From a virus: 27,122 bases of DNA. A program made the translations under genes and the position numbers. The DNA lies in IMG/VR virus record IMGVR_UViG_3300040814_000011, positions 1 to 27,122 of that record; one strand, given 5' to 3'. Positions 1,182 to 18,935 of this stretch are shown in pieces; within the stretch, counting starts at the first letter, position 1; each line of letters opens with the position of its first letter. The notes under the pieces were generated by a model. It was not told the origin of the DNA. It saw only the letters and a program-made list of their open reading frames with translations, and searched no databases.

Positions 1182-1654
1182 TGAACATCGAAGAGCAAGC
1201 GGTAGCACTCTACAGGGCATACCCTCGGAAGGTGGCGAAAGGGGCTGCGATCAAGGCGATCAAACGTGCCTTGCGTAAAGAGGACTTTGAGGTCCTAATG
1301 GAGGCGGTGACTGCCTACGCCGAGGCTAGGGAGGGGCAGGACCGGCAGTACACGCCTTATCCAGCGACTTGGTTCAACCAAGAGAGGTGGGAGGATGACC
1401 GCGAAGAGTGGACGCCCTTCAAGCCCAGCGTGTCCGCAGAGGAGGCGTGGACCGAGGTGCGTGCCGCTGTCAGGAAGTACGGGGTCATGGGGATGCCCGA
1501 CGCGAGGGCAGCACTTCCCGAGAGCATCATGGAGTCACTGGAGAAGGTGGGGTGGAGGAATGTGTGCGACATGACGGAGTACAACAGCGGGAAGTTGTAT
1601 CACCAGTTCCGATCCGTGTACGAGAGGCTGGCGTCTTGCGAAGCAAAAAGCTGA
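1181..1654 (+). CDS. Replication-type phage protein
   Basis: A 157-residue protein with an N-terminal motif AYPRKVAKGAAIKAIKRAL (about residues 13-31) and PATWFNQERWEDD (about 61-73). This pairing is recurrent in phage replication or replisome-organiser proteins, generally as their C-terminal domain; here it stands at the N terminus. The rest is helical and charged, without a recognised domain. The ATG overlaps the previous TGA and follows AGGAGG. The resolvase and nuclease downstream fit a replication and recombination module. A role in replication is inferred from the motif only. Confidence 0.5.
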   Translation: MNIEEQAVALYRAYPRKVAKGAAIKAIKRALRKEDFEVLMEAVTAYAEAREGQDRQYTPYPATWFNQERWEDDREEWTPFKPSVSAEEAWTEVRAAVRKYGVMGMPDARAALPESIMESLEKVGWRNVCDMTEYNSGKLYHQFRSVYERLASCEAKS

Positions 1655-1821
1655 GAAAGAAGACGGCTGAGCAGATCGTGGAAGCGGCATGGGAGCGGTA
1701 CTTCCGCAGCGTGCCGGGGACACCGGAGGCGATAGAATACCTGAGGAGGGCCGTGTCAATGCCCCTTGTCCCAGAGTATTTCAAGCATGCCCAGACGACC
1801 AGTGTACGAGAGCCAGAGTGA
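1636..1821 (+). CDS. Small basic helical protein, TTG start
   Basis: A 61-residue frame beginning at a TTG eight bases after GAGAGG, overlapping the previous gene's end by 19 bases and the next gene's start by about 35. The sequence is Lys/Arg-rich at the N terminus (RSKKLRKK), then a predicted helix with EQIVEAAWERYF and a second helix around EAIEYLRRAVSM. No family is recognised. It fills the gap between two confident genes in a tightly overlapping operon, which is the main support. Confidence 0.45.
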   Translation: MRSKKLRKKTAEQIVEAAWERYFRSVPGTPEAIEYLRRAVSMPLVPEYFKHAQTTSVREPE

Positions 1822-2780: not shown

Positions 2781-3000
2781 GATTGGAGACGACGCCGACG
2801 ACGGCCAAGTGTGGCGAGTTATCAACTCACAGGCTGACAGGATCTCCAAGCTGGACGACGCCATCTGGAAGGGGAACGGGGACAGCATCACGTCGCAGAT
2901 AATAAAGCTGAGGACGGAGCTACGCACCATCGCGGTGTGCGTCAGTGTACTCGTCCCTGTCATCATGAAGGTTATCGACCTATGGCTAGAAAAGTCCTGA
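2728..3000 (+). CDS. Coiled-coil plus C-terminal TM protein (XhlA/holin-like)
   Basis: A 90-residue protein. Residues 1-65 are heptad-like and charged (MEELERRVILLEEKL, then ISKLDDAIWKG). A hydrophobic segment at about 66-86 (TIAVCVSVLVPVIMKVIDLW) ends two charged residues from the C terminus. This coiled coil plus tail-anchor layout recalls XhlA-type lysis accessory proteins. A secreted protease follows directly and a lysin candidate lies 1.7 kb on, so a lysis role is plausible but not shown. The start overlaps the resolvase gene. Confidence 0.5.
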   Translation: MEELERRVILLEEKLKSEIGDDADDGQVWRVINSQADRISKLDDAIWKGNGDSITSQIIKLRTELRTIAVCVSVLVPVIMKVIDLWLEKS

Positions 3001-3851
3001 CGGCACTCCTGCTCCTCTGCGCCACCGCCATAGCCGCCGAGAAGCCCTCGTACTACAACGCAGTAGTCAGGGTTGATGGGTGCAGCGGGGTCCTCATCAG
3101 GAAGGGCAAGGACATATCCGTTGGGGTTTCCGCCCAGCACTGCACCGGGGCTGTGGGCACTGTGGCAAGGTTCCTGAACCCCGACGGGACGGGGGGCTAC
3201 GCACGCTGGATAGCCGAGGATGCCGACAGCGACCTTTCCCTGTTCAGGGTGTGGACAAAGGATACCAAGGGAGTGACCGTAAGCGTCCAGTCCAACTTGG
3301 AGAAGCCCGACGAGAAATACGATGGGTGGGGATATCCCAAGGGGAAGGGGCCTGAGTGGAAGAGGCTTGAGTGGGAGGGCACGTACAACATCGACGGCCT
3401 CAAGAACCCCCGCCACCAGTTCAGGGTTCGTGACGGCATCTTCAACAACGGCGACTCTGGGGGCGGGGTCTTCAGTAGGGGCAAGCTGTTCGGCATAACA
3501 TCCCACGGGTCCAAGGGGCACAAATACCTGTTCTCATGTACCAAGGAACAACTGAATTCCTTCCTCAGGAAGGAGGCTGACAAGCTGGACACAAAGCTGG
3601 TACAGTGGGATGGCAACAAGGCACCTCCGCTGGGTTCCGACAGGGACAGGACGGTGGCACTGGCTGCGGTAATAAAGAAGCTGGCCGAGATGGAGGCGGA
3701 AAACAAGAAGCTGCGGGAGGAGGTTCGCAGGATTGTGAACACTCCAGTGAGGGTTCAGGTGCTGGACCCTCGTTCTGGTAAAGTGCTGGCAGAAGAGGCG
3801 TACCCGTTTGGCACGCCCATCAAGCTGGTCTTACCGGAGTTGAGAAAATGA
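2982..3851 (+). CDS. Secreted trypsin-like serine protease 1
   Basis: A 289-residue protein with a clear Sec signal peptide (MARK, then a Leu/Ala core, cleavage likely after AIA around residue 18). The chymotrypsin-fold triad is visible: His53 in SAQHCTG, Asp84 in ADSDLSLF, and Ser159 in NNGDSGGGVF. Residues about 220-255 form a charged coiled coil, followed by a short beta-rich tail. ATG at 2982 is chosen because the signal peptide begins there; an in-frame start at 2937 would add a non-hydrophobic leader. It may act in the periplasm or outside the cell, possibly in lysis or exclusion. A second such protease lies at 15777. Confidence 0.8.
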   Translation: MARKVLTALLLLCATAIAAEKPSYYNAVVRVDGCSGVLIRKGKDISVGVSAQHCTGAVGTVARFLNPDGTGGYARWIAEDADSDLSLFRVWTKDTKGVTVSVQSNLEKPDEKYDGWGYPKGKGPEWKRLEWEGTYNIDGLKNPRHQFRVRDGIFNNGDSGGGVFSRGKLFGITSHGSKGHKYLFSCTKEQLNSFLRKEADKLDTKLVQWDGNKAPPLGSDRDRTVALAAVIKKLAEMEAENKKLREEVRRIVNTPVRVQVLDPRSGKVLAEEAYPFGTPIKLVLPELRK

Positions 3852-8709: not shown

Positions 8710-8991
8710 TCACATGGAGTCCTCGTCGGCATCGTCCTCGTCGACATCACCGTCGATGTCCACGAAGCGAAATCTAATGACACCCTCGTCTGGTATGGTC
8801 ATGCTTGTGACCTTCATGGCCAACGTCTTGGCAATGGAGTACAGGCCGTTGCGGAAGCTGTTGAGCGTACACTCGAAGTCTTCGCCCTTCGCAACTTCCC
8901 ACGTCCTGCCATCCGTCCACTCTGCCCAAGGGTATTGGTGAGTTCGTCCACGGTTGGCAACCAGTAGGCTGTCACTGACTGTCTTTGCCAT
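8710..8991 (-). CDS. YPW..W phage protein, paralogue B
   Basis: A 93-residue protein, paralogous to the next downstream gene (8240-8629). Shared features are the QYPWAEWTDGRTWE motif, GxDFxC, SFRNGLYSIAK and a strand ending IRFRF. The tail is highly acidic (DIDGDVDEDDADEDSM), so both copies end in acidic sequence of different length. The start follows AAAGGAGAA, which lies inside the upstream gene's end (20-base overlap). Tandem duplication with divergence is the simplest explanation. Confidence 0.6.
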   Translation of the reverse strand: MAKTVSDSLLVANRGRTHQYPWAEWTDGRTWEVAKGEDFECTLNSFRNGLYSIAKTLAMKVTSMTIPDEGVIRFRFVDIDGDVDEDDADEDSM

Positions 8992-9172
8992 CTCGGTTCT
9001 CCTTTCTAAGGCGAAGCAGTTCCGCTACGTCTGATTCGTAGATCGCAACTGCCTCTAGATCAGTGAGTCCGAGGGAGCGGTATCTGTCCTTGTACCCCTC
9101 CCAGTTCCAACCACGATAGAGCATGAACTCCTCGTGGTCATGTAGAGCTTTGACTCCTTCAAAGCTGTCCAC
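8972..9172 (-). CDS. Small acidic hypothetical protein, GTG start
   Basis: A 66-residue protein beginning VDSFEGVKALHDHEEFMLYRGWNWEGYKDRY and ending in a charged helix (DVAELLRLRKENRDG). GTG at 9172 is chosen because AAAGGAGG lies just upstream; the TTG at 9187 would place the ribosome site inside the gene. It has a strongly helical second half (LTDLEAVAIYESDVAELL). No family is recognised. Confidence 0.55.
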   Translation of the reverse strand: MDSFEGVKALHDHEEFMLYRGWNWEGYKDRYRSLGLTDLEAVAIYESDVAELLRLRKENRDGKDSQ

Positions 9173-9211: not shown

Positions 9212-9282
9212 GGAGCATTGGTCGACTTACGCCTTTCGGCTGCGAGTGCCAGCATCGCCACGTGGCGGCTGCTCCGTGATGC
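9212..9282 (-). promoter_or_regulatory. Spacer pseudoknot RNA, copy 1
   Basis: P1 pairs 9212-9217 (GGAGCA) with 9270-9275. P2 pairs 9252-9256 (GCATC) with 9278-9282. The P1 partner lies inside the P2 loop, so the two make an H-type pseudoknot. P4 is GCC-GAAA-GGC on the minus strand (9231-9240), a GNRA hairpin; P3 is GCCA/TGGC at 9257-9266. It lies upstream of the GTG at 9172. Confidence 0.7.
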
Positions 9283-9284
9283 CT

Positions 9285-9298
9285 CCCCCTTGCGGGGG
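9285..9298 (-). other. GNRA stem-loop after DUF932 gene
   Basis: CCCCC-GCAA-GGGGG on the minus strand, a GNRA tetraloop hairpin, 10 bases beyond the stop at 9309 and directly before pseudoknot copy 1. There is no U tract. Confidence 0.55.
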
Positions 9299-9308
9299 CG
9301 TGAAGTGG

Positions 9309-10376
9309 TTACGCAGCCATGGCGATCTTCCGCCATTCGCTGGGAGTCGAGTCGATCAGCCGACCACCGAACTGTTCAAGCTCAGTGGCTCTGTCGTAAG
9401 ACTTCCGATTCTCAGCAGCACGGGTGATGGCGTTGGCCATACCCCACTGGCTGAGGTCGCTGCCAGCAATCAGGTTGGCCATCACGTCGTCGGTTTCGTC
9501 CTCGGACAATCCGAAGCGACGTTGCACAACCTCAATCGCCTTCTGGGGTTTCCCCTCAATGCGGCGGTCGGTAGTCTCACGAAGCTGGTCGAGCCTCTCC
9601 TCCCAGCTACTCTGGTCGAAGATAGCGTCGACTGCGTCCCTGATCTTTGCCCAGAAGGCTGCATCGTCGAGCTTCCGGGTCGAGTCCTTGTAGAACTCCT
9701 GAGCAGCATCGACCGCGCCGACGCCCGTACTACGTCCAAGGTGGGTCTTGCGAACCGCTGTCGCCTGAACCATCCCGTTCGTGCAGACGAGCCGATAAAG
9801 GAACTCGTCAATCCTCAGGGATCCCTGTCCGACCTCGGAGTTGGACACAACAATCCCGCCCTGAACCGTGTCACCAACGGCGACATCGCCAACCAACCTC
9901 GGGCTTGTAGCCTTGAGGTAGAGGCGAGACTCCGTAAGCTCACACGACTTCATTTCGAGATCGCTGTCCTCGAACGCTGGCATTATCGAGCCAAGCAGTT
10001 CGTAGTTGTCCAGAGGACGGTAGCGATCAGAGAGGAACGCACGAACCGTGTCGGTTCTGGCGTCGGTTCGGACAAGACGATTCTTCCCGTCACCATCATT
10101 CCACCAGTGGTTGATGTTGTCAGCGAGAAGACTCGGGCACTCGGCCCGCATCCTGTCGTAGTACGCCTTTGGAATCTTCGCAGCGGCAGCGATCTGCCCG
10201 TGGGCGAGATCAGTTGCCCTGTGGTACTGCATGTCCTCCGAGATGTCGAAGTACACGTCGGCAGTACCGACTGCGGCGGCTTCCATTGCTCTGGTGTTGA
10301 CCGTGAAATCTTTGCCGTTGTCTCGCAACGACTGGACCTCTTGGGCAATCTCAGAAATATTACGTCCCAACTTCAT
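9309..10376 (-). CDS. DUF932 family protein
   Basis: A 355-residue protein, the longest in the leftward cluster. It carries the DUF932 signatures VRAFLSDRYRPLDNYELL (about residues 110-127), a following region LYLKATSPRLVGDVAVGDTVQGGIVVSNSEVG, and RLVCTNGMV near residue 193. DUF932 proteins are widespread in phages and plasmids and of uncertain role. The length agrees with the family (about 300-380). Start follows AAAGGAGAG. Upstream is a 577-base gap containing structured RNA. Confidence 0.8.
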   Translation of the reverse strand: MKLGRNISEIAQEVQSLRDNGKDFTVNTRAMEAAAVGTADVYFDISEDMQYHRATDLAHGQIAAAAKIPKAYYDRMRAECPSLLADNINHWWNDGDGKNRLVRTDARTDTVRAFLSDRYRPLDNYELLGSIMPAFEDSDLEMKSCELTESRLYLKATSPRLVGDVAVGDTVQGGIVVSNSEVGQGSLRIDEFLYRLVCTNGMVQATAVRKTHLGRSTGVGAVDAAQEFYKDSTRKLDDAAFWAKIRDAVDAIFDQSSWEERLDQLRETTDRRIEGKPQKAIEVVQRRFGLSEDETDDVMANLIAGSDLSQWGMANAITRAAENRKSYDRATELEQFGGRLIDSTPSEWRKIAMAA

Positions 10377-10399
10377 AAGTCTCTCCTTTCGAGAGTGGT

Positions 10400-10427
10400 G
10401 GGGGAGATAACCTGCCCCCCCGACAGG
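10400..10427 (-). promoter_or_regulatory. Compact H-type pseudoknot before DUF932
   Basis: GGGGG (10400-10404) pairs with CCCCC (10415-10419) and CCTG (10411-10414) with CAGG (10424-10427). The two helices interleave, giving a small pseudoknot about 10 bases upstream of the DUF932 ribosome site. It differs in sequence and size from the ten-copy family. A hairpin GTCAGC/GCTGAC (10429-10444) adjoins it. Confidence 0.45.
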
Positions 10428-10428
10428 T

Positions 10429-10953
10429 GTCAGCGATTGCTGACGTGTACCTAGTGAAAGGTGATCGACACCCGACCTTGCAGATAACCCACGGCGATGA
10501 ATTCTCCCGTATCGGGATCACCGCTGCTAGCAGGGTCTCTACTGAGGGGATGAATCAAACAGCGGTGCTCGAGGGACTAGCAGGGACCTGTACGCAGAAG
10601 ACTGCGGTAGCTGAACTAGTGAGTAAGATCGTGTATCATCCGCGGTCACCTAGGCTCGCACGGCGAGGGAAACGTCTACTGCACTACCAGCCCTATCCGA
10701 GTACTACTGGAGGGAGGTATGTCTCGTGTCGAAGACTTGTTGTTCATCTCCTCGGTCGGGTGGCGATCACCGCTCACCCAAAGGTGAGAGGAGAGTGCAG
10801 GGGGGTGGAGGTAGGCATCGCAGAAAACCTGCCACCCCCCGTACCCCTGTGGCGTGTGAGGGCCGGTCGGGGCTGCACTCGTCTCTCGTCTCTACCCTAT
10901 GTATCGACACATCGGGCAAAGAACTTTACGTGTTTCTCCTCAGTTTCTCAGTT
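10429..10953 (-). ncRNA. Candidate long structured RNA region (no gene)
   Basis: This gap holds many helices and no convincing gene. Examples are 10494-10500/10518-10524, whose G-U pairs only on the minus strand, with inner TCCCG/CGGGA. A three-way junction is closed by 10748-10752/10789-10793, with hairpins at 10759-10771 and 10773-10788. GTGCAG/CTGCAC (10795-10800/10873-10878) encloses a 13-bp stem with one bulge (10800-10815/10828-10840). A weak copy of the hairpin seen at 12985-13018 lies near 10895-10916. It could be the leader of the DUF932 transcript or a separate RNA. Confidence 0.4.
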
Positions 10954-11160
10954 TTAGACCGGAACAAAGCTGTAGTAAAAGCGTGGGGTGTGCTGGAACT
11001 CCAAGGAACCAATCACTCCGTCGGACTTGCGTTTGACCACCACCAGCGGGGCAGCGAACTGCCTTACCGTGTAGTCGTCTTGCAACTCCTCCGTGTTCCA
11101 CACCTGTCCAAACTTCTGCTCAAGGGCAGTCCGTTCAGGGTCGTAGGCTGAGTCGTTCAT
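10954..11160 (-). CDS. Small conserved phage protein
   Basis: A 68-residue protein with the pattern WNTEELQDDYTVRQFAAPLVVVKRKSDGVIGSLEFQHTPRFYYSF. This beta-rich signature (TxELqxDfxV..F.AP.v.V.RK.DG..G.L.F...PR.Y) recurs in small phage proteins of unknown function. The start follows AAGGAGACTCAG. No larger gene is possible here. Confidence 0.6.
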   Translation of the reverse strand: MNDSAYDPERTALEQKFGQVWNTEELQDDYTVRQFAAPLVVVKRKSDGVIGSLEFQHTPRFYYSFVPV

Positions 11161-11190
11161 CTGAGTCTCCTTGTGAAGGGAAGTGAAACT

Positions 11191-11242
11191 GGAGCATTGG
11201 TTGGTTATCCAGCACTGCCTCGTGGCGGCTGCTCCGTAGTGC
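11191..11242 (-). promoter_or_regulatory. Spacer pseudoknot RNA, copy 2
   Basis: P1 pairs 11191-11196 (GGAGCA) with 11230-11235; P2 pairs 11212-11216 (GCACT) with 11238-11242 (AGTGC). P2 differs from copy 1 (GCATC/GATGC) by a compensatory change. P4 is TGG/CCA at 11202-11211 and P3 is GCC/GGC at 11217-11226. It lies upstream of the gene starting at 11160. Confidence 0.7.
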
Positions 11243-11246
11243 CTAC

Positions 11247-11271
11247 GCAGCGTGACCGTAAGCCACGCTGC
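11247..11271 (-). other. Spacer stem-loop, 8 bp
   Basis: GCAGCGTG (11247-11254) pairs with CACGCTGC (11264-11271). On the minus strand the loop side GCTTACGGT can extend the stem by G-U and C-G. The same loop sequence appears at 11703-11729 with a different stem. Confidence 0.6.
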
Positions 11272-11280
11272 GCCTTGTTG

Positions 11281-11601
11281 CTACTTACCGTCAATTCGAT
11301 TGATTTCGAGGGGCTTGCTGCTGGACTTATCCCAGATCAGCGCGCCGTCGATGTCCGAGACCCTCGTGTCACCGGACACCACCCACCAGATTTGAGCCTC
11401 CTTGACTTTCAAGGCTCGCCCCCTGATCTTCTTGAGTTCGGCCTTGGCCTCCTCAACCGTGTCGCCAATACCGAAGTAGTGAGCGACCATGATCAGGATC
11501 TTGGTCAGGTTGTGTCTCATGGGGACGCGGTCTTCCGCATCCACAAACTCGGGTTCAGGTTCATCACCCACGAAGGGCTTCGATCTCTTGACTGTGGTCA
11601 T
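11281..11601 (-). CDS. Hypothetical protein
   Basis: A 106-residue protein with an acidic N terminus (GDEPEPEFVDAEDR), a central helix (LTKILIMVAHYFGIGDTVEEAKAELKKI) and a beta-rich end (AQIWWVVSGDTRVSDIDGALIWD). No family is recognised. Start follows AAAAGGAGAT, and the conserved CACTTCC lies just before it. Confidence 0.6.
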   Translation of the reverse strand: MTTVKRSKPFVGDEPEPEFVDAEDRVPMRHNLTKILIMVAHYFGIGDTVEEAKAELKKIRGRALKVKEAQIWWVVSGDTRVSDIDGALIWDKSSSKPLEINRIDGK

Positions 11602-11629
11602 AGCAATATCTCCTTTTGGGGAAGTGATT

Positions 11630-11699
11630 GAGACTTAGTGGGCTTACGTCTTTCGACTGCCAGTGCCAGCATCGCCAACTAGGAGGCGTCTCTTGATGC
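11630..11699 (-). promoter_or_regulatory. Spacer pseudoknot RNA, copy 3
   Basis: P1 pairs 11630-11634 (GAGAC) with 11688-11692 (GTCTC), a compensatory change from copies 1 and 2. P2 pairs 11669-11673 (GCATC) with 11695-11699. P4 is GTC-GAAA-GAC on the minus strand (11648-11657), where copy 1 has GCC-GAAA-GGC: a compensated pair around the same GNRA loop. It lies upstream of the gene starting at 11601. Confidence 0.75.
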
Positions 11700-11702
11700 C
11701 AC

Positions 11703-11729
11703 GGCGGCGTGACCGTAAGCCACGCCGCC
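11703..11729 (-). other. Spacer stem-loop, 9 bp
   Basis: GGCGGCGTG (11703-11711) pairs with CACGCCGCC (11721-11729), loop ACCGTAAGC as in the hairpin at 11247-11271. It begins 7 bases beyond the stop at 11736. Confidence 0.6.
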
Positions 11730-11735
11730 TGTAAT

Positions 11736-12152
11736 TCAACTGACCGGCGGGTTGACCCCGCTCATGTGGATTACCACATCCCGTACCATTGTGAGGGCCG
11801 AAGCCCCGCCTGATGCCGGTGAGTAAGAGAAATCATCCAACGCATCATTGACCTTGTCGTGACGGGAGAAGTCCGCGTAGTGACGAACCCTTTTCAGGTT
11901 GTCACCAGCGTAGTCTCCAGTCCAGTGGGGGTCGCTCATGTCTCCCTTCATGGGAGGGTCATAGGCGTACACCCTGTACGGATGGATTGTGTTCGCCGTG
12001 TTGTTGGTTTTCTCGATCAGGCCAATCGACCACGTATGGTCGCCTTCCCGATAGATAATCAACCAACGGCGACCTCTCCCATTCGGGAAGTAGCCCACTC
12101 GCTTGACTTCGGTCGTCTGCATCATCTGATCAAGTTCACTCATTGCGCTCAT
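11736..12152 (-). CDS. Hypothetical protein
   Basis: A 138-residue protein. The centre is beta-rich (RWLIIYREGDHTWSIGLIEK) with a Tyr/His/Asp-rich stretch (DPHWTGDYAGDNLKRVRHYADFSRHD) and a C-terminal helix (ALTMVRDVVIHMSG). No family is recognised. ATG at 12152 follows AAGGAGATATTCAA; an in-frame ATG three codons later is an alternative. Confidence 0.6.
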   Translation of the reverse strand: MSAMSELDQMMQTTEVKRVGYFPNGRGRRWLIIYREGDHTWSIGLIEKTNNTANTIHPYRVYAYDPPMKGDMSDPHWTGDYAGDNLKRVRHYADFSRHDKVNDALDDFSYSPASGGASALTMVRDVVIHMSGVNPPVS

Positions 12153-12181
12153 TTGAATATCTCCTTCTTAGGGAAGTGAAT

Positions 12182-12256
12182 GACTCGTCAGCTTAGGCCG
12201 TCATCGTTGTCACTCAGGCCGTACAGCAGCACCACATGAAGGTGAGTCTTTGCTGC
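12182..12256 (-). promoter_or_regulatory. Spacer pseudoknot RNA, copy 4
   Basis: P1 GACTC (12182-12186) pairs with GAGTC (12244-12248). P2 GCAGCA (12226-12231) pairs with TGCTGC (12251-12256). P0 GGCC pairs 12196-12199 with 12217-12220. P4 is GT/AC around TGTC (GACA on the minus strand) at 12206-12213. It lies upstream of the gene starting at 12152. Confidence 0.75.
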
Positions 12257-12261
12257 CATTG

Positions 12262-12333
12262 AGGGGAGGGCGGGGACAGGGGGTGGCAGTGAGCAACAGA
12301 GCTTTGCCACCCCCCATCCTGCTACGCCTCCCC
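12262..12333 (-). other. Long spacer stem-loop
   Basis: An inner 10-bp stem GGGGGTGGCA (12279-12288) pairs with TGCCACCCCC (12305-12314). An outer stem GGGGAGG.CG pairs near 12262-12271 with 12325-12333. It lies between the stop of the SWIM-like gene and pseudoknot copy 4. The inner GGTGGCA stem resembles the one at 10800-10840. Confidence 0.55.
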
Positions 12334-12340
12334 AACAGAG

Positions 12341-12529
12341 CTACGCACTAATGTCAGTGCGGATCTGCTCCAGATGCTTGCAACAGGTAGCACCCTTGCG
12401 GAAGGTACGAAACCGCTGGCTCATGCACGAGCAGTCAAGCTGCCCGTTGGGCTTGCGGGTAATGTCGTAGTGCTTCTTTCCGCTCGATGAGCGGACGGTC
12501 GCAAGGATCTCTCGTTTCTTTGCACCCAT
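12341..12529 (-). CDS. SWIM-like zinc-finger protein
   Basis: A 62-residue protein with DCSCMSQRF (C33, C35) and, 14 residues on, CCKHLEQI (C50, H52). CxC...CxH is the SWIM zinc-finger pattern, which binds DNA or protein. The N terminus is basic (GAKKREILATVRSSSGKKHYDI). Start follows AAGGAGACAGAAC. A role in regulation or DNA binding is inferred from the fold only. Confidence 0.65.
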   Translation of the reverse strand: MGAKKREILATVRSSSGKKHYDITRKPNGQLDCSCMSQRFRTFRKGATCCKHLEQIRTDISA

Positions 12530-12558
12530 AGTTCTGTCTCCTTAGGGGGAAGTGAAGT

Positions 12559-12633
12559 GACCCGTCAGCTTAGGCCGTCTTAGCTGTCGCTCAGGCCGTA
12601 CAGCAGCACCGCATGAAGGTGGGTCGTTGCTGC
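12559..12633 (-). promoter_or_regulatory. Spacer pseudoknot RNA, copy 5
   Basis: P1 is GACCC (12559-12563) with GGGTC (12621-12625), a compensated change from copy 4. P2 is GCAGCA (12603-12608) with TGCTGC (12628-12633). P0 GGCC pairs 12573-12576 with 12594-12597. P4 AGC/GCT (12582-12591) replaces GT/AC. Upstream of the gene starting at 12529. Confidence 0.75.
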
Positions 12634-12638
12634 CTGAA

Positions 12639-12656
12639 GCGCGACCGTAGTCGCGC
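12639..12656 (-). other. Stem-loop with UNCG tetraloop
   Basis: GCGCGAC (12639-12645) pairs with GTCGCGC (12650-12656). On the minus strand the loop is C(UACG)G, a stable UNCG tetraloop, which supports transcription of this strand as RNA. Confidence 0.65.
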
Positions 12657-12670
12657 CTCTGTTGAGTTAG

Positions 12671-12871
12671 TTATCGAGGGAAACCGACCGCGCGATCAAC
12701 AAGGTACGAGTCAATCTTGCATACTGCGACCTCGCATGATCGGGACAACTCACTGAGTTGGTCGTTTGTCATGTTCTCGGGGTCGCGAACTCCGCTGAAG
12801 CCCTTGAGGGCTAGCTTGCAGACTTCTCGCAAGTTCTCGCGGACCTGTTCCGCAGTCACTGGATTTCGCAT
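12671..12871 (-). CDS. Small helical hypothetical protein
   Basis: A 66-residue, largely helical protein (TAEQVRENLREVCKLALKGF, then NDQLSELSRSCEVAVCKIDSYLV). No family is recognised. Start at 12871 follows AGAGGAGACAG. Helix-rich composition is typical of small phage regulatory proteins, without further support. Confidence 0.55.
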   Translation of the reverse strand: MRNPVTAEQVRENLREVCKLALKGFSGVRDPENMTNDQLSELSRSCEVAVCKIDSYLVDRAVGFPR

Positions 12872-12902
12872 AACTCTGTCTCCTCTTGTGGGGAAGTGAA
12901 AT

Positions 12903-12978
12903 GATTCGTCAGCTTAGGCCGTCGTAGCTGTCGCTCGGGCCGTACAGCAGCACCATCGTGAAGGTGAATCGTTGCTGC
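12903..12978 (-). promoter_or_regulatory. Spacer pseudoknot RNA, copy 6
   Basis: P1 is GATTC (12903-12907) with GAATC (12966-12970), again compensated. P2 is GCAGCA (12947-12952) with TGCTGC (12973-12978). P0 GGCC pairs 12917-12920 with 12938-12941. P4 AGC/GCT is at 12926-12935. Upstream of the gene starting at 12871. Confidence 0.75.
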
Positions 12979-12984
12979 CTCTCA

Positions 12985-13018
12985 CCGCTACCCCATGTAT
13001 CGGCACATGGGGTAGCGG
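12985..13018 (-). other. Perfect 14-bp stem-loop
   Basis: CCGCTACCCCATGT (12985-12998) pairs perfectly with 13005-13018 around a 6-base loop, 8 bases beyond the stop at 13027. A degenerate version lies near 10895-10916. No U tract, so RNA stabilisation or processing is more likely than termination. Confidence 0.7.
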
Positions 13019-13026
13019 ACTTGAGA

Positions 13027-13392
13027 TTATTCGCAGAGTTCGAGGTAGCTTGTTCCGTCCTCAACGACCACGTCGATGCCCTTGGCCTTGAGTGTCTTAC
13101 AGGCGAGCTTGCAAGCCCTCGCGAATGCGTAGTCGCATTCCTCGATGTACTCGCCTTCGCAACCATGCCCAGCCTCATAATCCTTCCGATGCTTTTCACA
13201 GCGTTGGTGGAGTGTGATGCCGATGGAGGTTCCGAAGTTCTCGTCACAGAACTCAACGATCTCAAGGTCACCAGTGGTCCCGCCCTGATGCTCAAGCCTT
13301 GGCCCAAGCACCGGCTCCTTCAGTCCACCACACCAACCGGCGAAGCGGACAGGATCAGGAAGGGTAATCCATCTCGTGATTCTGTCAAACAT
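13027..13392 (-). CDS. Cys-rich hypothetical protein
   Basis: A 121-residue protein with seven or more Cys, several spaced in helices (HQRCEKHRKDYEAGHGC, then EECDYAFARACKLACKTLK). Possible metal ligands are Cys/His in that stretch. The C terminus is a strand/helix mix (GIDVVVEDGTSYLELCE). No family is recognised. Start follows AGAGGAGACCAGAG. Confidence 0.6.
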   Translation of the reverse strand: MFDRITRWITLPDPVRFAGWCGGLKEPVLGPRLEHQGGTTGDLEIVEFCDENFGTSIGITLHQRCEKHRKDYEAGHGCEGEYIEECDYAFARACKLACKTLKAKGIDVVVEDGTSYLELCE

Positions 13393-13421
13393 ATCTCTGG
13401 TCTCCTCTTGGGGAAGTGAGT

Positions 13422-13497
13422 GACTCGTCAGCTTAGCCCGTCTTAGGTGTCCCTCGGGGCGAACAGCAGCACCACCGTGAAGGTGAGTCGTCGCTGC
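13422..13497 (-). promoter_or_regulatory. Spacer pseudoknot RNA, copy 7
   Basis: P1 is GACTC (13422-13426) with GAGTC (13485-13489). P2 is GCAGC (13466-13470) with GCTGC (13493-13497). P0 changes to GCCC (13436-13439) with GGGC (13457-13460), a compensated change from GGCC/GGCC. P4 is AGG/CCT around GACA (13445-13454). Upstream of the gene starting at 13392. Confidence 0.75.
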
Positions 13498-13501
13498 CTG
13501 A

Positions 13502-13521
13502 GGCGCGACCGGAGTCGCGCC
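13502..13521 (-). other. Stem-loop with UNCG tetraloop
   Basis: GGCGCGAC (13502-13509) pairs with GTCGCGCC (13514-13521). On the minus strand the loop is C(UCCG)G, a UNCG tetraloop, as at 12639-12656 but with a different middle base. Confidence 0.65.
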
Positions 13522-13526
13522 CCGTC

Positions 13527-13724
13527 CTAGTCTTCGTCAGGGAGTGAGGCAAGATGCAGCCGCTGCCGTTCGAGGTACTGGTAGAGCGGCACGCCGGGTA
13601 GGTTGTGTTCCACAGTCGGCACGAAAATCGCGAAGTCTGCGTATCTCTCCGTCGAACTGGACGGAAGTTTTCCCACCGCTTCGATTGCTGCATCGAGAAG
13701 TCTTGCATGTTCTTCTCTTGTCAT
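13527..13724 (-). CDS. Small hypothetical protein
   Basis: A 65-residue protein (MTREEHARLLDAAIEAVGKL, then a beta region ADFAIFVPTVEHNLPGV and a C-terminal helix). ATG at 13724 follows GGAGACGATGCG; upstream in-frame codons run through the pseudoknot and are rejected. No family is recognised. Confidence 0.55.
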   Translation of the reverse strand: MTREEHARLLDAAIEAVGKLPSSSTERYADFAIFVPTVEHNLPGVPLYQYLERQRLHLASLPDED

Positions 13725-13752
13725 CGCATCGTCTCCATTGAAGGAAGTGATT

Positions 13753-13831
13753 GAACCGCTCAGCTTAGCCCGTCGCAGGTGTCCCTCGGGGCGTACAACA
13801 GCCACCACATGAAGGCGGGTTCGTTGGCTGT
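13753..13831 (-). promoter_or_regulatory. Spacer pseudoknot RNA, copy 8
   Basis: P1 is GAACC (13753-13757) with GGTTC (13818-13822). P2 is ACAGCCA (13798-13804) with TGGCTGT (13825-13831), compensated relative to GCAGCA/TGCTGC. P0 GCCC (13768-13771) pairs with GGGC (13789-13792); P4 AGG/CCT is at 13777-13786. Upstream of the gene starting at 13724. Confidence 0.75.
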
Positions 13832-13838
13832 CTTGTGT

Positions 13839-13870
13839 GGGGAAGGCGTGACCGTAGCCTAGCCTTCCCC
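13839..13870 (-). other. Spacer stem-loop, 9 bp
   Basis: GGGGAAGGC (13839-13847) pairs with GCCTTCCCC (13862-13870); the loop again contains GTGACCGTA as in other spacers. It lies just beyond the stop at 13877. Confidence 0.6.
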
Positions 13871-13876
13871 ACCCTT

Positions 13877-14197
13877 TCAATTCCTGTTCTCAAGTAGGTC
13901 GTTGTACAAACCGGCATCAGCGTAGATGCGTTCGATTTCAGCGAGTTGGTTGATCTGAGCCTTCGTCAACTGGCGGGTTTCCCAACCTGAGCCTTCGAGG
14001 TTGTGCAGTACACCCTCGAAGATGGCGCAGGTAATGCTGGCCGAGAAGGTCACTGGTTTGCCTCGGGGGTAGTAAACCCTGTTCACGTGGATCCCGTAGT
14101 CGGAATGCTCGATCTCCCAATCTCCCCACTCCGTGACTGCGTTTTGCAACGCAAGCTTGAAGCTCTGGAACATCTGCTGTTTCAGGAGGTTTGTCAT
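13877..14197 (-). CDS. Hypothetical protein
   Basis: A 106-residue protein. N-terminal helix (LLKQQMFQSFKLALQNAVTEW), a beta-rich centre (IEHSDYGIHVNRVYYPRGKPVTFSASI), then helices (QLTKAQINQLAEIERIYADAG). Start at 14197 follows AAAGGACACGCC. No family is recognised; it is the second gene of the leftward cluster as transcribed. Confidence 0.6.
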   Translation of the reverse strand: MTNLLKQQMFQSFKLALQNAVTEWGDWEIEHSDYGIHVNRVYYPRGKPVTFSASITCAIFEGVLHNLEGSGWETRQLTKAQINQLAEIERIYADAGLYNDLLENRN

Positions 14198-14227
14198 GGC
14201 GTGTCCTTTCTTTAGGGGAAGTGAAAT

Positions 14228-14309
14228 CGAACCGCTTAGCTTAGCCCGTCGTCGGTGTCCCTCAGGGCGAACAGCAGCTACCGCGTGAAGGCGGGTTCGT
14301 TGAAGCTGC
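14228..14309 (-). promoter_or_regulatory. Spacer pseudoknot RNA, copy 9
   Basis: P1 is CGAACC (14228-14233) with GGTTCG (14294-14299). P2 is GCAGCT (14274-14279) with AGCTGC (14304-14309), compensated at the last pair. P0 GCCC (14244-14247) pairs with GGGC (14265-14268); P4 is GG/CC around GACA. Upstream of the gene starting at 14197. Confidence 0.75.
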
Positions 14310-14312
14310 CTA

Positions 14313-14326
14313 GGGGCTTTCGCCCC
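14313..14326 (-). other. GNRA stem-loop
   Basis: GGGGC-GAAA-GCCCC on the minus strand, a GNRA hairpin directly between the stop at 14332 and pseudoknot copy 9. Confidence 0.6.
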
Positions 14327-14331
14327 GTTTG

Positions 14332-14673
14332 TCACTGTGCCATCGCAGTCACGACGAGTGTCGGGTCTAGCGTGTTGCACGTGATGAGAATGTTTTTGTT
14401 GACCGTCTGCTGCTGCTTGGTCGTGGCGGCCTTGCGGCGGCTACGGCGTCTGCGTTTCCGACTCGGCTTCGGAGTGTCGGTCTTCGGCGTCGGCTTCGGA
14501 GTACTCGCCTTCGGCTTTGCGACCGTGGCTTTTTTCTTTCGCTTTTTCTTTTTGACCACAACGACCGGCTCGTGATGATGCGGTTGAACCGCAGACCTGA
14601 ACCATTCGTCGGTTTCCTGCTCCGTTGCTGGGTTGGAAACACCAAACAGCACGCTCTTGATCTTTTGAAACAT
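14332..14673 (-). CDS. Histone-H1-like basic protein
   Basis: A 113-residue protein. Residues 1-35 look globular (MFQKIKSVLFGVSNPATEQE). Residues about 40-85 are extremely Lys/Arg/Pro/Thr-rich, with KKKKRKKK, TPKPTPKTDTPKP repeats and RKRRRRSRRK. The end is neutral. Such tails resemble eukaryotic H1 and bacterial Hc1/HctB-type DNA compactors, so it may bind the phage or host chromosome. It is the first gene of the leftward cluster, so it is probably made early. A shorter frame in another phase starts at 14680 but lacks this domain logic. Confidence 0.55.
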   Translation of the reverse strand: MFQKIKSVLFGVSNPATEQETDEWFRSAVQPHHHEPVVVVKKKKRKKKATVAKPKASTPKPTPKTDTPKPSRKRRRRSRRKAATTKQQQTVNKNILITCNTLDPTLVVTAMAQ

Positions 14674-14705
14674 TGTCCATCGTCTCCGTTTGAAGGAAGT
14701 GAAAA

Positions 14706-14782
14706 GGTCAGTCGGCTTAGCCCGTCAAAGATGTCTCTCGGGGCGAACAGCAGCACCAACTAGAAGGTCTGACCCGTGCTGC
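14706..14782 (-). promoter_or_regulatory. Spacer pseudoknot RNA, copy 10
   Basis: P1 is GGTCAG (14706-14711) with CTGACC (14769-14774), distinct from all others but fully paired. P2 is GCAGCA (14750-14755) with TGCTGC (14777-14782). P0 is GCCC (14720-14723) with GGGC (14741-14744); P4 is AGA/TCT (14729-14738). Upstream of the H1-like gene at 14673. Confidence 0.75.
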
Positions 14783-14786
14783 CGGA

Positions 14787-14987
14787 CCATCGGTTTGGTA
14801 CAATGAAGTACCGCACCGATGGCCTCACTTCAAAAGGTGAGACGATGGGAAGCCCGTACCTGCGGCACATTGCCTGTGGCATTGCGGTCCCCATCGTCTC
14901 GTAGAGATGAGACACGACCAGCGGTTACTATCCCGTAGGCTCTACTGCCCAGCCATACGCATTGGCTTCTTGCCATGGCTCTGGTCG
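14787..14987. ncRNA. Structured region, strand unknown
   Basis: Four helices can be drawn: 14787-14794/14815-14822 (8 bp) enclosing 14797-14801/14808-14812; 14839-14849/14890-14900 (11 bp, perfect); 14915-14921/14981-14987 (7 bp) enclosing 14951-14955/14963-14967. It begins right after pseudoknot copy 10. It could be the long leader of the leftward transcript, an RNA gene or an origin. No gene is seen here. Confidence 0.4.
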
Positions 14988-15541: not shown

Positions 15542-15808
15542 ATGTGGCGATGGTTTTTGATTACACTACTGGGGATGGCGGTCCTGATGGCCGCTGTCGT
15601 GCTTCAGCTAGTCGCTGTGGTCGTTTGTTCGGAGGGGGACCCAACCCTGATCCTGTGTTCTATCGTCATCGGCAACAGTGTTGCCACGACGTTACTGGTG
15701 TTTTGGTGTCACTACACGGAGCGTGTGTGGCGTGATCGTGTGTGGCGAGAAAAGCTGCTTAGTATGGAGAGAGACGATGCGAAGGGACCCTCGAAGGTAC
15801 GTCGTTGA
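15542..15808 (+). CDS. Small two-span membrane protein
   Basis: An 88-residue protein with two hydrophobic helices (about residues 3-28 and 36-55) joined by an acidic loop. A Trp/Arg-rich cytoplasmic-type tail follows (TERVWRDRVWREKLLSMERDD). ATG follows GGAG by 8 bases. It starts the rightward structural block and overlaps the next gene by 32 bases. No family is recognised; it could be a membrane partner of the secreted protease. Confidence 0.6.
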   Translation: MWRWFLITLLGMAVLMAAVVLQLVAVVVCSEGDPTLILCSIVIGNSVATTLLVFWCHYTERVWRDRVWREKLLSMERDDAKGPSKVRR

Positions 15809-16622
15809 GTTGTTGGTGGCCTTGTCGGCCCTGTCCGTGTGCGGTGCTTACGCCGTAGCACACGAGCAGACGTTGCCGAAGGACGTACCTGCTTACATGC
15901 AGGCTATCAGTGTCACGATCAAGGCGGGGTTCTCAGAGGGCAGTGGCGTAGCCATCGACCGAAACGGCACGACGTTCGTATGGACGGCGGGTCACGTGGT
16001 GGACGGTTTGCGGAGCATGCGTAAGGTGACGGACCCGAAGACGGGGACCCCCCGCACGATTATCGAGTTCGAGGATGCGAAGATCGTCAAGACGCTTGTG
16101 GAGGACGGTCGCACGGTTGGCTACCTGCACTTGGATGCGGAGGTTATCCGCTACAGCGATGCGGACCACGGCCACGACCTTGCGATCCTGAAGGTCCGCA
16201 AGAAGGGGGCCATCAAGACGAGTGCCGTCTTCTATGACGAAGCGAAGCCCCCAAAGCTGGGGACCCAGTTGTTTCACGTGGGCAGTCTGCTGGGGGTCGT
16301 AGGCTCGAATAGCCTGACGACAGGCATCGTGAGTGCCCATGGGAGACTTATCGGGAAGACTGTTTACGACCAGACTACGGTCACGGCGTTCCCCGGCAGT
16401 TCGGGTGGCGGTGTTTACTTGACGGATGGTCGGTATGTCGGGATGCTTGTACGTGGAGCGGGTGAAGGCTTCAACCTGATCGTCCCTGTACGTCGTATGC
16501 GTCGTTGGGCGAAGAAGGCCAAGGTGGAGTGGGCGTTGGACCCGAGGGTCAAGCTTCCCACCGAGGAAGAACGCAAGAAGATCCCGATTGAAGACATTGG
16601 GGCCAATTTTGGCGGGAAGTAA
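15777..16622 (+). CDS. Secreted trypsin-like serine protease 2
   Basis: A 281-residue protein with a basic N terminus then a hydrophobic signal core (YVVELLVALSALSVCGAYA). The S1-type triad is visible: His73 in WTAGHVVDG, Asp134 in HGHDLAILKV, Ser209 in FPGSSGGGVY. It follows the DegP/HtrA-like core without a visible PDZ domain; the C terminus is charged and short. ATG at 15777 is chosen since it precedes the signal peptide and follows GGAG by 7 bases. A TAATG links it to the next gene. Confidence 0.8.
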   Translation: MRRDPRRYVVELLVALSALSVCGAYAVAHEQTLPKDVPAYMQAISVTIKAGFSEGSGVAIDRNGTTFVWTAGHVVDGLRSMRKVTDPKTGTPRTIIEFEDAKIVKTLVEDGRTVGYLHLDAEVIRYSDADHGHDLAILKVRKKGAIKTSAVFYDEAKPPKLGTQLFHVGSLLGVVGSNSLTTGIVSAHGRLIGKTVYDQTTVTAFPGSSGGGVYLTDGRYVGMLVRGAGEGFNLIVPVRRMRRWAKKAKVEWALDPRVKLPTEEERKKIPIEDIGANFGGK

Positions 16623-17224
16623 TGCCTGAGATCAGTTCAGCGGAGTTGGCTGCCCTCCTGAAGAAGGATGGCAGATGGGATGAATTCAAGGCTTTTCGTC
16701 AGGCCGCAGAGTCTCGTGGGAACTCGAAGAAGCAGTCCTACACGATGGCGGCCAAGCAGTTCGGTTATGACTTGGGGACCTCCTCGCCGCCCACCTCCAA
16801 CCCCCCTCCGGCTGAGGGGGTCCCCGAGTTGCCGAGCCGTTACGCGAAGAAGGAGGAGTTCGGTGGGGAAGGCTCCTCCCTCAAGCAGGACTACCAGTGG
16901 GTGTATGACAACCTCGCCGTTGAGGACGTAACCCCCGCAGAGGCTCCCAGCAGCGGGGCGTGGGGCCTTTTGCAGTTTGCCCGCACGGACCCCAAGAGCT
17001 TCTACGTCGAGTGGATGCGAATGGTGTCCCGTCAGGAGAGTTCAGACGAGGTAATGGAGGGGTTTGTACAAGATGCCACGCGCTCCACAGATGAAATCGC
17101 CGCGATGGTCCGACTCCTCAGGGACGCTGCTGGTCTCGGAAGTCCCGAAGACTCTGGAGGAGAACCTGCTGTTCCGGCAGACGATCCTCCAAAGAAGCGG
17201 GAGCGACAGGGGTCTACAGCGTGA
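16622..17224 (+). CDS. Putative terminase small subunit
   Basis: A 200-residue protein immediately upstream of the large terminase. The N-terminal helix region (SAELAALLKKDGRWDEFKAFRQAAESRG, then KQSYTMAAKQFG) could be a DNA-binding helix-turn-helix. A Pro-rich linker follows, and a charged helical C terminus (DEIAAMVRLLRDAAG) ends in a basic stretch. Identification is by position and helical pattern, not by a firm motif. The start overlaps the protease stop (TAATG). Confidence 0.5.
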   Translation: MPEISSAELAALLKKDGRWDEFKAFRQAAESRGNSKKQSYTMAAKQFGYDLGTSSPPTSNPPPAEGVPELPSRYAKKEEFGGEGSSLKQDYQWVYDNLAVEDVTPAEAPSSGAWGLLQFARTDPKSFYVEWMRMVSRQESSDEVMEGFVQDATRSTDEIAAMVRLLRDAAGLGSPEDSGGEPAVPADDPPKKRERQGSTA

Positions 17225-18935
17225 CCTGTGGGATGCCTGTAGCAGGGACATCCTGTTTTGGATCAATGCCTTCGCGTGGACGTACGACCCCCGTGTGATC
17301 AAGGATGGTCGCAGCCCCAAGCTGCCGTTCATCACGTGGGAGTTCCAAGACAACGCATTCCTTTGTCTTGACGAGTCCATCGGCACGACGGACGTAATCG
17401 TCGAGAAGTCCCGCGACATGGGGGCATCGTGGATCTGCCTGACCACGTTCGCCTATCACTGGCTGTTCCGGCCCATGGAGAGCTTCTTGATGGTTAGCCG
17501 GAAGGAGGCGTTGGTGGATGGTGCGGGGGACTCGTTGTTCTCGCACATTGACTTCATCCTCAAGGGTCTTCCTGCGTGGATGCGTCCCCAGAGGAAGCGG
17601 AACAAGCTGAAGCTGATCAACGAGGAGAATGGCTCGAAGATCGAGGGCGAGTCGACGACGGATAACATCGGTCGTGGCGGTCGTCGGACGGCGATGCTCA
17701 TCGACGAGTTCGCCGCATTCGATCAGGGAGGGTGGGACGTGTTGAGCGCGACGGCAGACAACACGAACACCCGCCTGTTCAACTCGACCCCCAACGGGAC
17801 GGGCAATGCGTTCTTCGCCCAGTTGGAGGGAGGGACTCCAAGGATCAGGATGCACTGGTCTGCTCATCCCGAGAAGGGTGCTGGTCTCTACCGGCCTTCT
17901 CGTCTTGGCGGGGTGGAGATCATCGACAAGGACTACATCTACGACAAGGACTTCAAGTTCATAGGAGAGGTCCCCAGCGGAGAAGAGGGGTTTCGGTCAC
18001 CTTGGTACGACCGCGAGTGCGTCCGTCGAAGTCACGCGGTTGAGATCGCGACGCAGCTTGACATCGACTACCAAGGGTCGGCCTACCCGTTCTTCGACCC
18101 CATGACGATGAGGGAACTCAAGTTGGAGTTTTGCAGGGAGCCGCAACATATAGGACAATTACGGGTACTCGATGGTTACGAGCCTGAATTTGTCGAGGAC
18201 AAAAAGGGCGACCTTGTAATATGGTGCGAACTCGATGAAAACGGCAATCCTCCGAACGACCGCGATTATGTTGTTGGCTGCGATGTGTCTCAGGGTACTG
18301 GGGCGAGCGATTCTGCTCTGTCAGTGGGGGATCGTTTATCGGGGGAAAAGGTCGCAGAGCTTTGTTCTAATCAAATCAGCGCGAATCGTTTTGCGGAGCT
18401 TGCTGTTGCGTTATGCCGGATGTTCAGCGGCTCTGGCGGCAGAGGTGCTTACCTTATCTGGGAAGCCACTGGGCCGGGGCGAACCTTCGGACGCACCGTC
18501 GTAGACGACTGCCGGTACTCGAACATATACTACAAGACAGACGAGACTAGCTTGCGAAGGAAACAGTCGGATAGGCCGGGGTGGTTCAGCAACGCAGAGG
18601 CCAAAAAGGATTTACTAACGGGCTACAGGGACTCTCTTGTTGCAAAGACTTTTATAAATCCATCATCCAAGGCAGTAGGGCAGGCTTTGGAGTTCATCTA
18701 CACAACGAACGGACGAATCGAACACGGCGGCGCGATGAACTCGCCCGACCCCTCAGATTCGGGAGACAACCACGGTGACATCGTCATTGCTGACGCACTG
18801 TGCTGCAAGGTTGTCAGGGAACGCCAACAGAAACATCAGAAGAGGCACACAGCACCGCCTCACGTGATGTCGTTCCAGTGGCGTCGCAACGCTAGGCTCA
18901 GGGAAGAATCAATGTTGCGGGATGGATGGGACTAA
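17073..18935 (+). CDS. terL: Terminase large subunit
   Basis: A 620-residue packaging motor. The ATPase has a Walker A-like EKSRDMGASW (111-120), Walker B MLIDEF (D211, E212) and a coupling motif FNSTPNGTGN (236-245). The nuclease domain has D404 in VVGCDVSQG and D569/D574 in NHGDIVIADAL. The start is uncertain: ATG at 17073, ten bases after GGAGGGG, is preferred to TTG 17064 or ATG 17091, so it overlaps the small subunit. From about 18120 to 18780 codons turn clearly more AT-rich than before, roughly at the start of the nuclease part. Confidence 0.9.
   Translation: MPRAPQMKSPRWSDSSGTLLVSEVPKTLEENLLFRQTILQRSGSDRGLQRDLWDACSRDILFWINAFAWTYDPRVIKDGRSPKLPFITWEFQDNAFLCLDESIGTTDVIVEKSRDMGASWICLTTFAYHWLFRPMESFLMVSRKEALVDGAGDSLFSHIDFILKGLPAWMRPQRKRNKLKLINEENGSKIEGESTTDNIGRGGRRTAMLIDEFAAFDQGGWDVLSATADNTNTRLFNSTPNGTGNAFFAQLEGGTPRIRMHWSAHPEKGAGLYRPSRLGGVEIIDKDYIYDKDFKFIGEVPSGEEGFRSPWYDRECVRRSHAVEIATQLDIDYQGSAYPFFDPMTMRELKLEFCREPQHIGQLRVLDGYEPEFVEDKKGDLVIWCELDENGNPPNDRDYVVGCDVSQGTGASDSALSVGDRLSGEKVAELCSNQISANRFAELAVALCRMFSGSGGRGAYLIWEATGPGRTFGRTVVDDCRYSNIYYKTDETSLRRKQSDRPGWFSNAEAKKDLLTGYRDSLVAKTFINPSSKAVGQALEFIYTTNGRIEHGGAMNSPDPSDSGDNHGDIVIADALCCKVVRERQQKHQKRHTAPPHVMSFQWRRNARLREESMLRDGWD

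Follow-up and report, generated by a model that had tools for sequence, protein, structure and literature searches.

We analysed the whole of the 27,122-base virus record IMGVR_UViG_3300040814_000011 (positions 1-27,122, hereafter the window), which carries the genes for a terminase large subunit (17064-18935) and a major head protein (23466-24620) on the plus strand of its right part, and a cluster of small genes on the minus strand, from about 14.7 kb down to 6.1 kb. Ten minus-strand spacers of this cluster, from 14783 to 9212, each contain one structured RNA element (Table 1). These ten elements are very probably self-cleaving ribozymes of three subtypes, resembling that of hepatitis delta virus (HDV), which would cut the leftward transcript into single-gene messenger RNAs (mRNAs).

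In all ten copies the strands follow the order P1 5', P2 5', P3 hairpin, P1 3', P4, J4/2, P2 3', that of the nested double pseudoknot of the HDV family. A sequence-only reading of the same DNA had described a ten-copy covarying pseudoknot RNA in the leaders of leftward phage genes, and this is fully supported: its coordinates on the minus strand were recovered, and the helix variants it quoted, with their complements, were correct. Its assignment to the H type captured the pseudoknot but was incomplete. The helices that it named P2 and P1 correspond to P1 and P2 of HDV, the terminal C of its P0 is the invariant first base of J4/2, and the pairing of the L3 loop with the bases right after P1 (P1.1), which it lacked, makes the fold a nested double pseudoknot in which catalytic and cleavage-site residues are conserved. 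It also missed the kink-turn form that its P0/P4 module takes in seven copies, and the stem-loop directly before the first base of most copies; RNA processing was among the roles it listed, with no family or mechanism named.

The hallmarks of HDV ribozymes were counted in 37 distinct copies from seven contigs, the window included. The first P1 pair was G.U in 37/37 copies, as were C the third and G the sixth base of L3, G the base after P1 (hence a C-G first P1.1 pair in every copy), and C and A the first and fourth bases of J4/2, which matches the C-N-R-A pattern that defines membership; the first G, the G after P1, CNAA and the third L3 base are partly so by construction, because they were demanded by the descriptor used for searching or, for the C in L3, sought by the structural parse. 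Not demanded by the descriptor were a U opposite the first G, the identity of the sixth base of L3 and of the base at position -1, and the coupling within P1.1. The base at -1 of the predicted cut was A in 23 copies, U in eight, C in six and G in none, and the second P1.1 position was strictly coupled, being C-G in 13 copies and U.U in 24. In HDV, the G at the cleavage site stands in a G.U pair and the -1 base is not G.

When run on the window, the descriptor (helix pairing, a paired G as first base, G after P1, and CNAA) returned, on the minus strand, the ten copies and nothing else and, on the plus strand, a single match, within an open reading frame (ORF). With A, G or T in place of the catalytic C, 1, 0 and 1 minus-strand matches were left, respectively, and a stricter, earlier descriptor gave 8 real matches vs 0-1 in each of 20 order-1 Markov sequences.

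Covariation was assessed in the style of R-scape, by a G-test with average-product correction against 60 simulations along a FastTree tree, and was tested on a structural alignment because P2 and P3 are partly misplaced in the MAFFT alignment (A1). The nine highest-ranked pairs all fell in P1, P2 or P1.1; six of them had no equal in the 60 simulations, while the seventh, in P1, reached an E value of about 0.05 and the P1.1 pair, at rank eight, about 0.07. Within A1, pairs of P1, P2 and P4 had changed on both sides and, in a MAFFT alignment of the kink-turn copies, the proposed structure beat 500/500 shuffles (by a score of pairing and covariation) and every slid version of itself. The pairing rate per helix is not independent evidence, since the descriptor demanded pairing of P1 and P2; independent evidence comes from the variety of pair types, the ten copies found by eye and the copies found by covariance models.

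A DNA pattern for the P4 module identified five other viral contigs, and protein searches added one more. Covariance models built from the copies and run on the whole records revealed about 48 copies in the resulting seven contigs of one phage group (10, 7, 7, 5, 6, 8 and 5 per contig, two of the contigs being nearly the same in sequence), among them copies missed by the descriptor. The sequence-only reading had looked for support to homologues in related phages and to covarying pairs, and both were found. A 115-kb, otherwise different contig (L027) carries one minimal copy, which is flanked by two genes and immediately preceded by a hairpin; most viral contigs matching a minimal-type pattern were judged chance matches, L027 being the only new one with a full ribozyme. 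The array was absent from distant DUF932 or capsid relatives (37-64% identity), and megablast and blastn against phages gave no match. One HDV-like copy, at 1578-1497 (minus strand) of contig L003, has an L3 loop enlarged by an extra hairpin.

The subtypes differ in P4. Nineteen copies, seven of them in the window, carry the pattern GNNC-Y-GAG-X-GACA-X'-C-NNN-GA-C-NNNC, in which X.X' takes all four Watson-Crick types without this pairing having been asked for by the descriptor. As RNA, the module forms a three-base bulge followed by tandem G.A pairs (G.A and A.G) between two helices, the capped one of only 2 bp, and is a kink-turn by its sequence, from which it may be expected to kink. The remaining copies have short P4 loops (CGCCUUCGGGC, GGCCAUACGGCC), a GNRA-capped P4 or almost no P4, and relatives replace the kink-turn P4 by a tetraloop or drop it; among the ten copies of the window, only copy 9 has the P4-less minimal form, which resembles theta ribozymes. 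The 25-base kink-turn pattern had no match in 84,980 bacterial and archaeal genomes. The high conservation of GAGXGACAX'CNNNGAC, together with the covariation of X.X' through four pair types, could mean that cleavage is controlled by a protein or metabolite bound to the kink-turn P4, as in aptazyme-like ribozymes; we consider this unlikely, because orthologous genes carry four-base-loop copies or copies without a kink-turn P4, so that no fixed sensor is kept, and because the 3b base is C in 18/19 kink-turn copies, which, by a published rule (PMC4382518), permits kink-turn folding in metal ions alone.

The same slot was compared between phages. Homologues of the gene behind ribozyme 4 occur in six contigs, the window included, and are preceded by three ribozyme subtypes: a kink-turn copy in two phages, a short-P4 copy in two and a GNRA-P4 copy with two-pair P1.1 in two. 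In front of the counterpart of the ribozyme-6 gene, contig L005 carries a type II hammerhead (8878-8811, minus strand) with CUGAUGA, GAAA and all three stems, which scored under the Rfam cut-off (E 4.2e-05 when 201 bases were searched, 1.3e-6 for its record); in this orthologous slot other phages have an HDV-like ribozyme. A search for hammerheads (three stems around CUGANGA and GAAA) found none in the window's cluster, the ten copies included. As the two unrelated folds occupying the same slot share only self-cleavage, this exchange is the strongest argument for cleavage as the function and, together with subtype swapping before the same gene, argues for selection on cutting itself.

At most cut sites a stem-loop stood between the stop codon of the upstream gene and the cut, with its end 0-6 nt from the latter. 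The 45 nt upstream of the cut had a folding z-score of -2 or lower with a hairpin within 6 nt at 25/37 sites vs 40/400 control positions, and the 45 nt 3' of the ribozyme were unstructured (median z 0.58). The z-score was used instead of a count of contiguous stems, which was weak (26/37 vs 23% of positions) because bulged and 5-bp hairpins fail it. We considered the spacer hairpins as intrinsic terminators and dropped this candidate, since they have no U-run and a ribozyme follows after 0-5 nt. On the other side of the ribozyme, an open pyrimidine-rich stretch is followed by the ribosome site, the start codon lying 24-39 nt from the ribozyme in nearly all copies (mostly 27-31, about 28).

That the leaders stand about 28 nt ahead of start codons would also suit non-catalytic pseudoknots acting as 5' caps or in translational control, any cutting being left to host RNases, and compact 5' structures do slow decay. 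This reading is very unlikely, since it leaves unexplained the invariant G.U first pair, the J4/2 cytosine, the P1.1 partners and the lack of G at -1, as well as the hairpin abutting the first base and the hammerhead in an orthologous slot.

Under the preferred reading of a self-cleaving array, the leftward cluster would be transcribed as one RNA that dices itself during transcription, each ribozyme folding and cutting immediately 5' of its P1. The upstream message would then end in a stem-loop plus 0-5 nt with a 2',3'-cyclic phosphate, and the downstream message would begin with a compact 5'-OH ribozyme pseudoknot ahead of its start codon. In this way a polycistronic transcript would be divided by the array into mRNAs of one gene each, whose two ends would be defined and structured and should both slow exonucleases, and each mRNA would probably get its own stability and translation. 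A speculative extension, which we regard as doubtful, is that self-dicing operons are a general phage strategy, in which the slot may be taken by any self-cleaving class, the 3' end upstream is protected by the hairpin, and a protein acts through the kink-turn P4 to set when the cuts occur in the course of infection.

Several observations weigh against assigning the elements to the HDV family or to this role. Copies with a kink-turn or a short P4 have a longer J4/2 (CUAAGCUGAC and similar), and U.U replaces C-G at their second P1.1 position; the spacer hairpins pass the folding test at many sites, not all; and the DUF932 gene of the window is without a ribozyme, while three relatives have one. 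Moreover, no Rfam HDV-type model reached its cut-off: RF00094 had no match, RF02682 (HDV-F-prausnitzii) gave 18 weak matches below cut-off in related records and none in the window, and Rfam at its gathering threshold returned nothing relevant in the window. Of these 18 weak matches, 17 coincided with predicted copies, starting at most 1 nt from the predicted cut; the CPEB3 ribozyme, which represents another HDV-like family, gave two weak matches, both overlapping predicted copies.

Two further readings accept cleavage and differ in its purpose. The ribozymes might release noncoding RNAs, namely the leader before copy 1 and the leader RNA of the DUF932 gene, with mRNA cutting as a side effect; ribozyme 1 does terminate a conserved leader of about 400 nt, and in three relatives a ribozyme lies directly 3' of the structured RNA before DUF932, but most copies have ordinary small genes on either side and nothing but a hairpin ahead of them, which makes this less probable again than non-catalytic caps. 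Least probable of all is that the 5'-OH and 2',3'-cyclic phosphate ends, which HDV-type and hammerhead cleavage both yield, allow an RtcB-type ligase to make circular mRNAs: predicted cuts lie on both sides of most genes in the cluster, but no RtcB or RNA ligase was found in these (incomplete) contigs, and the 5' and 3' ends of a unit showed no obvious pairing, albeit without a systematic test.

Compared with the ribozymes of HDV, CPEB3 and drz-Fpra-1, the elements share the nested double pseudoknot, the G.U first pair, the P1.1 pair between L3 and G38, a C-N-R-A J4/2 and the avoidance of G at -1; they differ in occurring as many copies within one phage gene cluster, in the kink-turn form of P4, in the longer J4/2 and one-pair P1.1 of one subtype, and in scoring under Rfam cut-offs. 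Theta ribozymes (Kienbeck et al., PMC10879173) are HDV-like and found in phages, mostly at tRNA 3' ends, non-tRNA cases, mostly sense and non-coding, being also reported there and left open. As in these ribozymes of gut phages, the elements described here are HDV-like, occur in double-stranded DNA phages and, in their minimal copies, share the P4-less layout; in contrast, a tRNA search found none in the window or the related loci, the copies are sited between protein genes, most have a P4, and they form arrays of 5-10 with hairpins in front. In prophage hammerhead clusters (Perreault et al., PMC3088659), several ribozymes flank single genes and processing into single-gene mRNAs was proposed, with tandem cleavage demonstrated in vitro and, in the case of one set, within E. 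coli. Unlike those clusters, the present array uses an HDV-like fold (except in the one L005 slot), with up to ten copies per cluster. Synthetic biology uses ribozyme insulators such as RiboJ, in which a self-cleaving ribozyme before the ribosome-binding site gives a uniform 5' leader. The array can be seen as a natural counterpart to these ribozyme parts of gene-circuit design, differing from RiboJ-type insulators in being natural and HDV-type and in supplying the preceding gene with a 3' hairpin.

HDV-like (theta) ribozymes of phages and hammerheads situated between genes of prophages were known already, and we found no literature on HDV-type arrays between phage protein genes, within an incomplete search coverage. 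The ten-copy HDV-type mRNA-splitting array, the kink-turn subtype, the hairpin-ribozyme module and the exchange of ribozyme class appear to be new. Few HDV-like ribozymes of bacteria and phages have an established role; the gene context gives the copies described here a clear, testable one, the production of single-gene mRNAs from a common transcript.

Table 1 Predicted ribozymes, the stem-loops before their cut sites and the genes behind them in the window
Feature	Position	Strand	Remarks
HDV-like ribozyme 1	14705..14783	-	GU after P1, kink-turn P4; predicted cut 5' of 14783; R1 E 5.5e-20
Stem-loop before cut site 1	14785..14824	-	end of ~400-nt conserved noncoding leader
Gene behind ribozyme 1	14332..14673	-	113 aa, basic
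HDV-like ribozyme 2	14228..14310	-	kink-turn P4
Stem-loop before cut site 2	14313..14326	-	GGGGC-GAAA-GCCCC
Gene behind ribozyme 2	13877..14197	-	106 aa
HDV-like ribozyme 3	13753..13832	-	kink-turn P4
Stem-loop before cut site 3	13837..13872	-	
Gene behind ribozyme 3	13527..13724	-	65 aa
HDV-like ribozyme 4	13422..13498	-	kink-turn P4
Stem-loop before cut site 4	13500..13523	-	
Gene behind ribozyme 4	13027..13392	-	121 aa, 'MFD' family
HDV-like ribozyme 5	12903..12979	-	kink-turn P4; R1 E 4.7e-23
Stem-loop before cut site 5	12980..13026	-	begins directly 3' of upstream stop codon
Gene behind ribozyme 5	12671..12871	-	66 aa
HDV-like ribozyme 6	12559..12634	-	kink-turn P4
Stem-loop before cut site 6	12636..12659	-	
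Gene behind ribozyme 6	12341..12529	-	62 aa; L005 counterpart has type II hammerhead in front
HDV-like ribozyme 7	12182..12257	-	kink-turn P4
Long stem-loop before cut site 7	12263..12333	-	
Gene behind ribozyme 7	11736..12152	-	138 aa
HDV-like ribozyme 8	11630..11700	-	GG/CC P1.1, P4 capped by GAAA
Stem-loop before cut site 8	11703..11729	-	
Gene behind ribozyme 8	11281..11601	-	106 aa
HDV-like ribozyme 9	11191..11243	-	minimal, no real P4, 53 nt
Stem-loop before cut site 9	11245..11273	-	
Gene behind ribozyme 9	10954..11160	-	68 aa
HDV-like ribozyme 10	9212..9283	-	GG/CC P1.1, P4 capped by GAAA; R2 E 1.8e-18
Stem-loop before cut site 10	9285..9298	-	CCCCC-GCAA-GGGGG
Gene behind ribozyme 10	8972..9172	-	66 aa

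Two conserved noncoding regions accompany the array. The conserved leader of about 400 nt before ribozyme 1 (15200-14784, minus strand) contains a repeated unit, GTGGAAAGCCCC...GATGTCGCTACCAC, and a conserved CCTTTTGAAGTGAGGCC. Before the DUF932 gene, at 10772-10458 (minus strand), lies a conserved, highly structured RNA of a little over 300 nt, with no Rfam match, whose long closing helix (GGTGATCG.CCACCCGACC / GGTCGGGTG.TCGATCACC) is kept in relatives by paired changes. Between the arms of this helix, contig L009 has a match to the manA RNA (RF01745) at 1588-1757 (plus strand), with 51.2 bits vs a cut-off of 55.2 and E 1.1e-10; this motif was reported from marine metagenomes and cyanophages. 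A ribozyme stands between the structured RNA and DUF932 in L001 (1419-1354), L005 (5823-5746) and L009 (1786-1850), and is cleanly missing at about 10447 (minus strand) of the window, through loss in the window or gain in the relatives. Elsewhere in the window, an IRE_II match at 15663 was taken as chance, as it lies inside a plus-strand ORF, and two plus-strand genes encode trypsin-like peptidases, one scoring just under the Pfam cut-off (2937-3851) and the other well over it (15678-16622).

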